Source of the DNA: an uncultured Lachnospiraceae bacterium
Lineage (GTDB): Bacteria > Bacillota > Clostridia > Lachnospirales > Lachnospiraceae
DNA length: 42,344 nucleotides
Direction: 5' to 3'
Assembly: GCA_902761225.1 (NCBI GenBank)
Contig: CACWJQ010000020.1
Span: forward strand, 1 to 42,344
Shown: positions 10,496 to 42,226 of the stretch, piece by piece
How the letters are laid out: every line of letters begins with the position of its first letter
Position numbering within the stretch: the first letter of the stretch is position 1
Made by a program: the position numbers and the translations under genes
The notes under the pieces: generated by a model
The model's input: the letters and a program-made list of their open reading frames with translations, nothing else
Told to the model about the DNA's origin: nothing
The model's database searches: none

Positions 10496-11248
10496 TCATG
10501 TATCACCGATAGGGTTAGGTGCTTTCTTACCCTTCGCGATCATCACTTCATTGATCTTCTTCATTATCTGAAGCTTGACATAATCGGATATCTCCTTGGA
10601 CTTCATGTCCTTGTAATCCTCATAGTAGAGGGGCTCGAGATAGTGAACCTGAGTTGTTATCTTTTTAAGAATATTGATACCGAATGCTCTGTAGGAATCG
10701 ACAAGTGCCACCGGTACTATGGGGCTTTTAGCCATCATCGCGGCTTTGAACGCACCGGGGAGGAATTCCTGAACCCTGTTTCTGTTGTGGTAATAACCGC
10801 CTTCGGGGAAAATAATGTATATCCTTCCGGCTCTGACTTCATCTGAAACAGCCTTGATGCTCTTGACCTGGGATCTCAGATCCGATTTGTTGAGTCTGCA
10901 GCCGTCGAGGATATCTACCATCTCATCCGCAAGAGGCATCTTGGATCTGACCTCATCCATTACAACGGTACATGGTCTTTCGTGTGAATACATGATGCCG
11001 AGGGTGTCGAATTTACCCTGGTGGTTCGGGAACATTACATATCCTCCTTCTTTGGGAAGATTCTCTGTTCCGTAGTACTTGGTCCTGATCCTGCCGTTCT
11101 TCATGCACTGGATCATCATTCTCTTGATGAATGCATATCTTTCCTCGATGGGGAAGGAATCCTTGTGCTTCAGGATGTACCTGGCTTTGATCAGAAAGTA
11201 TATGATCCATGGGATAGAAACAAATACGGTCAAATAAAATCTAAGCAT
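10496..11248 (-). CDS. plsC: 1-acyl-sn-glycerol-3-phosphate acyltransferase (PlsC family)
   Basis: A 250-residue membrane-associated acyltransferase. An N-terminal hydrophobic segment (about 2-22) precedes the LPLAT domain. Motif I is NHQGKFD (the HX4D catalytic pair). Motif III is FPEGGYY, and the following region contains GAFKAAMMAKSPIVPVALV. PlsC transfers the second acyl chain to lysophosphatidate in phospholipid synthesis; some family members act on other lysolipids, so the exact substrate is inferred. The start at 11248 (MLRFYL) is favoured because GGGAG lies five bases upstream; an in-frame start at 11287 would add a Gly-rich stretch out of keeping with the family. It is transcribed divergently from the HAD gene. 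Confidence 0.8.
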   Translation of the reverse strand: MLRFYLTVFVSIPWIIYFLIKARYILKHKDSFPIEERYAFIKRMMIQCMKNGRIRTKYYGTENLPKEGGYVMFPNHQGKFDTLGIMYSHERPCTVVMDEVRSKMPLADEMVDILDGCRLNKSDLRSQVKSIKAVSDEVRAGRIYIIFPEGGYYHNRNRVQEFLPGAFKAAMMAKSPIVPVALVDSYRAFGINILKKITTQVHYLEPLYYEDYKDMKSKEISDYVKLQIMKKINEVMIAKGKKAPNPIGDT

Positions 11249-19144: not shown

Positions 19145-20635
19145 ATGCAGCAGTTTATCAGGATAAATGAATCGGATAATGTAGCTGTAGCACTGACTAC
19201 GCTTGAGAAAGATTTCTCCCTTTCTTTTGAACAGGACGACCAGCCTGTTCAGACCCTTGAGGAAATCCCTGCAGGCCACAAGGTGGCTCTGCGGGATATC
19301 CGGGAGGGTGAGGATATCATCAAGTACGGTTACCGTATAGGTATCGCCGTTAAGGATATCCCCGCGGGAAGCTGGGTTCACACCCACAATATCCGCACCG
19401 GATTGGGAGAGCTTCTTGAATATAAATACGAACCTGTACCTGCCCGGACTATGAAGGGCATTACCAGCACCTTTAAAGGATTCCTGAGGGATGACGGAAG
19501 CGTCGGAGTGAGAAATGAGGTCTGGATCATCCCTACTGTAGGATGCGTCGGCAAGGTTGCAGAGGCTATTGCCAACATGTCCAGGAAGTACCTTAAGGGC
19601 AGCGTATCCGATGTCATCGCATTCAACCACCCTTACGGCTGTTCGCAGATGGGCGACGATCAGGAGAATACCAGAAAAATCCTGTGTGACCTGATAAAGC
19701 ATCCCAATGCCGGAGGTGTTCTGGTGCTGAGCCTCGGATGTGAAAACAGTAACCTGGATGTACTGAAGCCCATGCTCGGTGATGTGGACGAAAACAGGGT
19801 AAAGTTCCTTGTCTGTCAGGAATCTGAGGACGAGATAGCTGACGGCGCTGCCATGGTTAAAAAACTCATCGAGTATGCAGGCGGCGATGAGAGACAGGAC
19901 GTACCTGTTTCAAAGCTGGTCATCGGACTTAAATGCGGAGGTTCTGACGGCCTCTCGGGCATCACTGCAAATCCTCTTGTGGGAAGATTTTCCGACAGGC
20001 TCGTCTCAAAGGGAGGAACCACGATCCTTACGGAGGTTCCGGAGATGTTCGGAGCGGAGACAATCCTTATGAACAGATGCAAGGATGAAGCACTGTTCGA
20101 TAAGACGGTATGTCTCATCAATGATTTCAAGAATTATTACAAGGCTAACGGTCAGACTATATACGAGAATCCTTCCCCGGGAAACAAGAAGGGCGGGATC
20201 TCAACACTTGAAGATAAATCACTTGGCTGTACTCAGAAATCCGGTTCTTCACCGGTGCGAGGGGTATTAAAGTACGGAGAGAGAGTGGTTTGTCCGGGGC
20301 TTAACCTCCTTTCTGCCCCGGGCAACGACCTCGTCGCCGCAACTGCCCTTGCTGCTTCGGGAGCCCAGATAGTACTCTTTACTACCGGAAGAGGAACTCC
20401 CTTCGCATCGCCGGTGCCTACGCTGAAGATCTCAACCAATTCGGCTCTGGCAGGACACAAGAAGACCTGGATCGATTTTAATGCCGGAATCCTTACGGAG
20501 GACGGCCATACATGGGAAGAGGCAACGGATGATCTTTACGATCTCGTTCTGGAGGTTGCCGAGGGCAGAAAGGTAAAGTCCGAGGAAGCCGGATTCCACG
20601 ATATGGCGATATTCAAAACCGGCGTAACCCTGTAA
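19145..20635 (+). CDS. uxaA: Altronate dehydratase
   Basis: A 496-residue iron-dependent dehydratase that converts D-altronate to 2-keto-3-deoxygluconate. The N-terminal SAF-type domain (about 1-85, ending AGSWVHTHNIRTGL) is joined to the large UxaA/GarD domain, with GFLRDDGSVGVRNEVWIIPTV, AFNHPYGCSQMGDD, LGCENSNL, GLKCGGSDGLSGITANP and LLSAPGNDLVAATALAASGAQIVLFTTGRG. The full two-domain length (about 495) is typical. It follows uxaB by six bases and must be co-transcribed. The product would next require KdgK and KdgA, which are not in this window. The 226-bp inverted-repeat element lies 26 bases after the stop. Confidence 0.95.
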   Translation: MQQFIRINESDNVAVALTTLEKDFSLSFEQDDQPVQTLEEIPAGHKVALRDIREGEDIIKYGYRIGIAVKDIPAGSWVHTHNIRTGLGELLEYKYEPVPARTMKGITSTFKGFLRDDGSVGVRNEVWIIPTVGCVGKVAEAIANMSRKYLKGSVSDVIAFNHPYGCSQMGDDQENTRKILCDLIKHPNAGGVLVLSLGCENSNLDVLKPMLGDVDENRVKFLVCQESEDEIADGAAMVKKLIEYAGGDERQDVPVSKLVIGLKCGGSDGLSGITANPLVGRFSDRLVSKGGTTILTEVPEMFGAETILMNRCKDEALFDKTVCLINDFKNYYKANGQTIYENPSPGNKKGGISTLEDKSLGCTQKSGSSPVRGVLKYGERVVCPGLNLLSAPGNDLVAATALAASGAQIVLFTTGRGTPFASPVPTLKISTNSALAGHKKTWIDFNAGILTEDGHTWEEATDDLYDLVLEVAEGRKVKSEEAGFHDMAIFKTGVTL

Positions 20636-20661: not shown

Positions 20662-20887
20662 GTGTCCCGCATCATGTTTTTTATTTTATCTCATGGTCGC
20701 TGCGCTAAGCAGTTCTAATGAATGCATGTAGTGTTCAGAAGCTTTCGTGTCGCTGTCAAAGATACATCCCTGTATCTGTGACAGCTCGCCTCGCCATCCG
20801 GGCTCGGCGCCACTGGTGAACGGATGCATTCATAAGAACCGCTAAGCTCGCTTTAAATCGATAAAATAAAAACATGATGCGGGACAC
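20662..20887. repeat. 226-bp non-coding palindromic element with 28-bp terminal inverted repeats (MITE-like or structured RNA)
   Basis: The element begins GTGTCCCGCATCATG and ends with its exact complement. The terminal arms (20662-20690 and 20860-20887) pair over 28 bp with a single bulged T. After a ~10-base unpaired stretch, inner arms (20702-20727 with 20824-20850) pair again, including a perfect 10-bp ATGAATGCAT and GTTCT/AGAAC. The apex holds a hairpin of two 7-bp stems with a TCCC loop (20752-20785) and a GC-rich segment with a possible CGCC/GGCG stem (20787-20809). The element is flanked on both sides by GTT, a possible 3-bp target duplication. No open frame of note lies inside. It fills most of the gap between uxaA and the isomerase gene. 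I do not recognise it as a known Rfam-type RNA. A non-autonomous mobile element or a large regulatory RNA are the two main readings. Confidence 0.7.
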
Positions 20888-20918: not shown

Positions 20919-21045
20919 ATTACGTGGAGTAAATAGGATGATAAGTCGGGATGGAAGGGTAATCCCGAACATTCTGACACAGACTTTTTGCATACAGACA
21001 GACGATCAGTGTGTCGCAGACACAGAAGGAACAGAGGGCAATGAT

Positions 21046-21879
21046 ATGCAGCTTGGCATAAGACTTCACGATACAGAGAATCTTCCCTTTGAAGAGAGGA
21101 TAGCGGCGGTTCATGAGATGGGATATAAATGCGGTCATCTGGCACTGTCCAAGATACCGGGACTGCCCGCTGCTCCAGAGGCCCTGACTCCAGGATATGC
21201 AATGTATCTGAGGAGAGTATTTGAGAAGAATGATGTGGACGTGGCGGTTCTTGGATGCTATCTGAACCTTGCCGATCCCGATGAGGACAGGCTTAAGGCT
21301 ATCAGGGGGAAGTATGAAGCGAGCATAAGGTTTGCTTCACTCCTTGGCGCGGGAATGGTCGGGACAGAGACCGGAGCTCCGAATTCGGAATATAAGAGCT
21401 GCCCGGAATGCAGGTCCGAGGAGGCCCTTGAATCATTTATCAGGGAACTGAAGAGTGTGGTAAGGATTGCTGAAAACTTCGGGGTTATGTTCGCCATAGA
21501 GCCTGTTGCAAAGCATATAGTATGGAACGCGGACCGTGCGAGGATAGTTCTCGATGAGGTGGCTTCCCCGAACCTGGGCATCATATTCGATCCCGTAAAT
21601 CTTCTGGATGAGAGTAATTATCAGAACAGGGATGAGATATTTGCACATACCATCGAGGTGCTTGGAGACGATATCATCATGCTCCATCTCAAGGATTTCG
21701 TACCGGGGGAAGGCGGTCTTAAATCTGTTGGATGCGGCCTCGGAGAGATGGATTATACCCGGATCCTTAAGTTCATTAAGGAAAAGAAGCCTTATATCCA
21801 TGCAACACTGGAAAATACCACGCCTGCAGACCACGCATCCTGCAGGGACAGGATCCTTGGCATATATGAAAGATCCTGA
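21046..21879 (+). CDS. Sugar phosphate isomerase/epimerase (AP-endonuclease-2-like TIM barrel)
   Basis: A 277-residue TIM-barrel protein of the xylose-isomerase-like superfamily. It has the expected order of metal-site segments: MFAIEPVAKHIVWN (Glu), GIIFDPVNLLDESN (Asp), MLHLKDF (His) and HATLENTTP (Glu). The start at 21046 is preferred because MQLGIRLHD is the normal first strand and GAGGG is eight bases upstream. A longer in-frame start at 20938 also has a GGAG site but would add 36 residues of non-barrel sequence. Substrate cannot be read from sequence. The gene stands after uxaA in the same direction, separated by the inverted-repeat element, so a part in hexuronate or related sugar metabolism is possible but unproven. 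Confidence 0.75.
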   Translation: MQLGIRLHDTENLPFEERIAAVHEMGYKCGHLALSKIPGLPAAPEALTPGYAMYLRRVFEKNDVDVAVLGCYLNLADPDEDRLKAIRGKYEASIRFASLLGAGMVGTETGAPNSEYKSCPECRSEEALESFIRELKSVVRIAENFGVMFAIEPVAKHIVWNADRARIVLDEVASPNLGIIFDPVNLLDESNYQNRDEIFAHTIEVLGDDIIMLHLKDFVPGEGGLKSVGCGLGEMDYTRILKFIKEKKPYIHATLENTTPADHASCRDRILGIYERS

Positions 21880-41980: not shown

Positions 41981-42066
41981 GGAGAGGTATCGAAGCGGTC
42001 ATAACGAGGCGGTCTTGAAAACCGTTTGTCCGAAAGGGCGCGTGGGTTCGAATCCCACCCTCTCCG
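41981..42066 (+). tRNA. tRNA-Ser (UGA anticodon)
   Basis: An 86-base class II tRNA. The acceptor stem is GGAGAGG / CCTCTCC with discriminator G, the anticodon loop is CTTGAAA (anticodon TGA at 42016-42018), there is a long variable arm (TTTGTCCGAAAGGGCGC), and the T-arm is GTGGGTTCGAATCCCAC. CCA is not encoded, so it must be added after 3' processing. Confidence 0.96.
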
Positions 42067-42137: not shown

Positions 42138-42226
42138 GGAGAAGTACTCAAGTGGTTGAAGAGACACCCCTGGAAAGGGTGCAGGTCGTTAATAGCGGCG
42201 CGAGGGTTCAAATCCCTCCTTCTCCG
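42138..42226 (+). tRNA. tRNA-Ser (GGA anticodon)
   Basis: An 89-base class II tRNA. The acceptor stem is GGAGAAG / CTTCTCC with discriminator G, the anticodon loop is CTGGAAA (anticodon GGA at 42172-42174), there is an extended variable arm (GCAGGTCGTTAATAGCGGC), and the T-arm is GAGGGTTCAAATCCCTC. CCA is not encoded. It lies 71 bases after the first serine tRNA and is probably on the same transcript. Confidence 0.96.

Follow-up and report, generated by a model that had tools for sequence, protein, structure and literature searches.

TwoAYGGAY RNA with an extended outer helix in a Lachnospiraceae genome: a candidate CsrA decoy beside FliW

Introduction

Known CsrA decoys have many binding sites rather than two. 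CsrB/CsrC and RsmX/Y/Z of Gammaproteobacteria show GGA in hairpin loops and occur in hosts that have CsrA.

TwoAYGGAY RNA (Rfam RF01731) was published as early as 2010, and the passages considered here report no tested function for it. The discovery paper, in the passages on this family, marked it as probably an RNA, probably not cis-regulatory and probably not a riboswitch (PMC2864571), while the Rfam entry gives its type as Cis-reg and its function as unknown. Binding of CsrA was proposed on motif matches alone in a later paper, whose passages on the family also describe the external stem of the model used at that time as poorly conserved (PMC4333381). The passages on TwoAYGGAY in PMC2864571, PMC4333381, PMC11701678, PMC11661157 and PMC7657543 report no binding or expression test. 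Further, our literature search covered open-access papers without their supplements, and, judged by title, none of the matches listed apart from PMC4333381 dealt with a clostridial RNA that binds CsrA.

The locus described here is like the published family in that it spans the full 168-position model above the cutoff and has two terminal GGA loops. It differs in that an outer helix of approximately 28 bp is added, its genome shows one copy, and the AY flanks of the loops are partial. It resembles CsrB/CsrC and RsmX/Y/Z in the GGA of its hairpin loops and in a host that has CsrA. Unlike these RNAs, it has two sites only, placed on a long rod, has no promoter or terminator that we could see, is dispersed in copies among relatives and has FliW in its host; no homology is claimed. 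With REP/REPIN elements and MITEs, it shares a short intergenic palindrome, species-variable sites and several copies per genome in relatives. It departs from these in arms that vary but still pair, in mostly conserved loops, in an asymmetry that follows the RNA strand and in the lack of a linked Y1 transposase. The present analysis adds to the family the longer helix, the RNA-selected strand, the gain of sites and the association with csrA.

Results

The palindrome is a TwoAYGGAY RNA

The element lies at 20662-20887 of the window (the whole stretch of 42,344 nucleotides that was analysed), between uxaA on its left (19145-20635, plus strand; D-galactarate/altronate dehydratase domains) and a xylose-isomerase-like TIM-barrel gene on its right (20938-21879, plus strand). 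When the whole window was searched with cmscan, the minus strand at 20694-20857 matched RF01731 with 77.8 bits (gathering score, 43; E 1.2e-11). The palindrome is a member of the known Rfam family TwoAYGGAY, an identification that is ordinary in itself, and this copy is antisense to both flanking genes. Its features are as follows.

20694..20857, minus strand: TwoAYGGAY RNA core, Rfam RF01731 model positions 1-168 (cmscan and alignment)
20860..20887, minus strand: outer helix 5' arm, beyond the Rfam model, equal to the right terminal repeat (inverted repeats, fold, compensatory change in genus copies)
20662..20690, minus strand: outer helix 3' arm, equal to the left terminal repeat (arm pairing, compensatory change, fold)
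20824..20847, minus strand: inner helix 5' arm (inverted repeats, fold, covariation of helix 3)
20704..20727, minus strand: inner helix 3' arm (inverted repeats, fold, covariation of helix 3)
20787..20809, minus strand: terminal hairpin 1 with GGA loop, CCCGGAUGG (fold; GGA in loop 1 of genus copies)
20752..20785, minus strand: terminal hairpin 2 with GGA loop (inverted repeats, fold; GGA in loop 2 of genus copies)
20764..20775, minus strand: CsrA-consensus match AUACAGGGAUGU (12/12 to RUACARGGAUGU)

The geometry that a sequence-only reading had described was recovered. The 28-bp terminal inverted repeats consist of 20662-20686/20863-20887 (92% identical) and 20678-20690/20860-20872 (100%), and the single bulge arises because the second segment pairs in a register shifted by one base. 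The inner repeats (20704-20727/20824-20847, 88%), the apical hairpin at 20752-20785 (arms 20752-20766/20771-20785, 93%), the GTT at both outer borders and the absence of a U-run exit were likewise borne out. Further, the proposed long branched hairpin agreed with the predicted fold: the 227-nt minus strand reached -113.3 kcal/mol, whereas 200 shuffles gave -56.9 (sd 4.5; z -12.6), and a 251-nt stretch around the element gave z -12.8 on the minus and -9.3 on the plus strand. What had been read as terminal repeats forms an outer helix that extends past the Rfam model. The two loops read CCGGAU and AGGGAU, with GGA present in both and the flanking AY of AYGGAY partly kept.

Elsewhere in the window we noted an FMN riboswitch (RF00050; 28762-28931, plus strand, 86.1 bits) and, at the window end, two tRNA genes (41981-42066 and 42138-42226, both plus strand).

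Copies in the genus

The homologues that the sequence-only reading had suggested looking for in relatives were found: the genus holds 65 copies, the window's included, in 17 of 31 genomes, and 63 of them score over the family cutoff. Up to nine copies were found in one genome. The window's own genome gave a different result: the second copy that had been looked for did not appear, and both BLAST and the covariance model returned one copy only from this assembly, which is 93% complete and in 106 contigs, so that further copies may be missed. Nucleotide searches of plasmids and phages with the element gave no match. The genes beside the genus copies, named from their translations, were varied and mostly housekeeping-looking.

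Nine close pairs of copies were observed at approximately five sites, with starts 283-415 bp apart, all of them head to head (minus, then plus); these are at G002:C7 (L055), G015:C14 (L051, L052), G026:C11 (L054), G001:C1 (L056), G016:C180 (L053), G018:C23 (L057) and G012:C249 (L058). Outside the genus, one genome of the class sample (G221) has a tandem pair of weak TwoAYGGAY matches.

The outer helix is conserved in pairing

For all 65 copies, we reverse-complemented one side and aligned it with the 60 nt of the opposite side. The median score was 27 for a copy's own arms and 8 for arms taken from different copies (n=319), and a score of at least 20 was reached by 59/65 own-arm pairs but by only 4/319 of the others. 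Own arms pair, and arms drawn from different copies do not; what is conserved in the stem is its pairing, not its letters. From the core, the stem extends over a median of 32 nt.

Compensatory change, which had been named as worth looking for, was then evident in an alignment of 29 copies chosen from the 65, the window copy among them. Double changes were present at 44 of 61 pairs, a count as high as this occurring in 0/500 shuffles, and 94.8% of cells were paired compared with only 35-45% in slid registers. The two outer helices contributed 26/28 pairs with double compensatory changes. In a class-wide sample, 12 of 14 loci from seven families had at least 17 Watson-Crick arm pairs by raw count; the two with fewer were L113 and L115. 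The structure of RF01731 is extended here by a helix left out of the Rfam model.

Arms and cores behaved differently between copies. Where the cores of two copies were at least 92% identical, their arms were 91% identical at the same site (8 pairs) and 69% identical otherwise (21 pairs; shuffled, 43%); two or three of these 21 are probably ungrouped same-site pairs (arsR, ppk and perhaps G003/G019), and setting them apart would make the gap wider. Thus, cores remain similar across sites at which the arms have diverged strongly. Three explanations would each fit this contrast: copies may homogenise their cores, arms may be renewed when a copy inserts, or the core may have few positions that are free to vary.

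Strand asymmetry points to selection on minus-strand RNA

Under selection on an RNA, G-U is tolerated in the strand that is transcribed; on the opposite strand, this change appears as A-C. The 38-nt arms of the 65 copies contained 77 G-U pairs, 19 A-C and 67 other mismatches, where the arm composition predicts a G-U/A-C ratio of 1.16 (excess, p 9e-8). Counted per copy, G-U prevailed in 37 and A-C in nine of the 65. The asymmetry points to selection on the minus-strand RNA, and it also held where the upstream gene has the opposite orientation (20 vs 6, p 0.018). A mutation bias linked to transcription could be an alternative source of the asymmetry and would still imply that this strand is transcribed. 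The G-U excess over the 65 copies lends indirect support to the view that an RNA is made from the minus strand of the element. An own promoter and terminator, as expected of a decoy RNA, were rarely seen among the copies: a sigma-70-like promoter lay upstream of 1/65 (1.9% in shuffles, no enrichment), with none seen for the window copy on the minus strand, and a T-run at the exit was present in 3/65.

GGA loops and the CsrA consensus

GGA was present in loop 1 of 60/65 copies, in loop 2 of 58/65, in both of 54/65 and in at least one of 64/65, whereas 17% of other 13-nt windows in the cores contained it. Eleven copies lack GGA in at least one loop; seven of these are all seven copies of one genome (G004), each of which lost one or more, and this genome has csrA. 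One of its copies, scoring 80.8 bits, has GGA in neither loop. The 12 losses are ten CGA and two UGA.

The CsrA consensus obtained by SELEX is given as RUACARGGAUGU in the passages of a review that treat it (PMC7652899), and loop 2 of the window copy, AUACAGGGAUGU, agrees with it at 12/12 positions. A score of at least 10 was reached by loop 2 in 18/65 copies compared with 0/751 other stretches. Loop 1 has the GGA, with no excess over background in the 65 copies when scored against the full consensus. The SELEX work, according to the same passages, also suggested that very stable hairpins may bind CsrA less well (PMC7652899), and hairpin 2 of the window copy is a stable hairpin.

Association with csrA and fliW

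The host genome carries csrA, encoding a CsrA of 72 aa, on contig C32, where it adjoins fliW. Since csrA is nearly universal in the genus (27/31 genomes) and therefore discriminates nothing there, we used a class sample of 393 genomes. RNA was detected in 35/393 of these (26 over the family cutoff) by a search with stricter filters in which at most seven candidates were scored per genome, so that both presence and copy number may be underestimated; csrA was present in 135/393. It occurred in 33/35 genomes with the RNA and in 102/358 without (odds ratio 41, p 8e-15, related genomes not being independent), and in 25/26 against 110/367 when only matches over the family cutoff were counted. Two genomes, G185 and G309, have the RNA without csrA and also without fliW; two other genomes of each of their genera have both genes, which makes assembly gaps likely. 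The motif-based guess about CsrA is thereby turned into an association across 393 genomes. Further, fliW was present in 136/393, nearly the same genomes as csrA, and the association may therefore reflect motility: with fliW as a control, csrA was not separable from motility genes in this sample.

Copies are gained at new sites

Sites lacking the element, which the sequence-only reading had suggested looking for, were found in all nine genus species that keep the uxaA-isomerase pair (L119-L127), which are too diverged to define the exact unit. In each, the aligned parts of uxaA and the isomerase gene lie fewer than 100 nt apart, leaving no room for the element. That all nine species lack the window copy at this site indicates that copies are gained by some route, and the best reading of the element is a dispersed structured RNA gained in the window's lineage.

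The arsR site is also variable. It contains the element in G015 and G016 and a short terminator-like hairpin without the element in G001 and G018; in G026, a short hairpin lies next to the left gene, but the right flank is rearranged. At this site, the terminator hairpins flanking the element are mutual inverted copies, loops included, in both G015 (L052, approximately 2040-2570) and G016 (L053, approximately 10665-11200); they match within a site and differ between the two genomes.

At the ends of the arms, 3/65 copies including the window's (GTT) have a direct repeat of 3 nt, where the 1.2% seen in controls gives approximately 0.8 expected, and 8/65 have one of 2 nt, compared with 5% in controls. 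Y1 transposase was present in 4/17 genus genomes with the RNA and 5/14 without, showing no association, and none was found in the host genome. A GGGACGGTTCT-like motif, presumably REP-like, was seen in inverted orientation outside the stem of some copies and was not seen at the window copy.

Discussion

We lean towards the reading that the palindrome is a minus-strand TwoAYGGAY structured RNA which may act as a CsrA decoy beside FliW, a role suggested by its motifs and genomic company. The sequence-only reading had left the choice between a MITE-like element and a large structured RNA. Its structured-RNA half is right, because the Rfam family match is joined by very strong compensatory change, while the MITE half finds little support: the arms are unshared, a target duplication is not clear, the own genome shows one copy and Y1 transposases are not linked.

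In a MITE or another non-autonomous transposon, the 28-bp arms would be terminal inverted repeats. Such an origin, which we consider improbable, would fit the absence of the element from the uxaA-isomerase site in the nine species, the several copies in some genomes, the filled and empty sites that differ among close relatives as at arsR, and outer repeats that share GGGACGGTTCT outside the stem around several copies of G015, G016, G001 and G026. However, terminal repeats common to the copies are missing, as the median scores of 8 and 27 indicate; the 3-nt edge repeats are at most a weak excess; one copy was found in the own genome; Y1 transposase, the only transposase family compared, is not linked; and neither compensatory change nor the G-U bias is expected of transposon ends. 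The classification of the family as Cis-reg in Rfam raises another reading, a cis-acting structure in the 3' UTR, or a terminator, by which the upstream gene's transcript is stabilised or ended. In its favour, 43 of the 63 copies that have an upstream ORF of at least 100 aa share their strand with the nearest such ORF, but this bias becomes 27 to 15 (p 0.09) when copies are collapsed to 43 site groups. The T-run is rare at the exit, both window neighbours are on the opposite strand, the neighbouring genes of copies vary, and the passages of the discovery paper on this family mark it as probably not cis-regulatory (PMC2864571). We hold a cis-acting role to be unlikely. The U-run that follows the stem of an intrinsic terminator is absent in the window copy and occurs in 3/65 copies overall.

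Pairing of the arms could also arise in DNA that has no RNA function, if template switching between arms during replication kept the palindrome perfect, a mechanism that has been published for RNA stems in the passages we cite (PMC8794818). Mirror symmetry continues past the stem in 14/65 copies (score of at least 14 beyond 45 nt) compared with 0.4% of 256 controls, and the terminator loops of the arsR site differ between two species yet match between arms. Close same-site copies behave otherwise. Ten overlapping comparisons in six groups gave 28 one-sided changes to G-U, six other one-sided changes and eight kept double changes, and these G-U steps weaken template switching as the main source of arm pairing. 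In seven more diverged same-site comparisons, G-U steps were no longer dominant, and broken and double changes outnumbered them, as template switching would allow. The excess of G-U over A-C of 4 to 1 and the mostly conserved GGA loops also argue against it, and we regard it as very improbable as the full explanation. Template switching may account for the longer mirror symmetry past the stem.

As a CsrA decoy, the minus-strand RNA would form a rod of approximately 225 nt, with an outer helix of approximately 28 bp and an inner helix of approximately 24 bp, ending in two small hairpins that show GGA in their loops. The two GGA hairpins, approximately 30 nt apart, would together engage both RNA-binding faces of one CsrA dimer; the rod would shield the RNA and display its loops. 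A stable RNA of this kind would draw CsrA away from the mRNAs that it targets, alongside FliW as the protein antagonist, and its copies would arrive at new intergenic sites by some route. We judge the chances of this mechanism to be evenly balanced.

More tentatively, dispersed and still spreading two-site rod RNAs of FliW-bearing Clostridia may be CsrA decoys that act with FliW, in which case a protein and an RNA would jointly set CsrA. Joint action of FliW and small RNAs on CsrA in any species remains to be determined, according to the passages of a review that address it (PMC7652899). A decoy role would matter since control of CsrA by an RNA has yet to be established in this bacterial group. 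If it is true, CsrA decoy RNAs would exist outside Gammaproteobacteria, alongside FliW, a coexistence that the same passages call open (PMC7652899).
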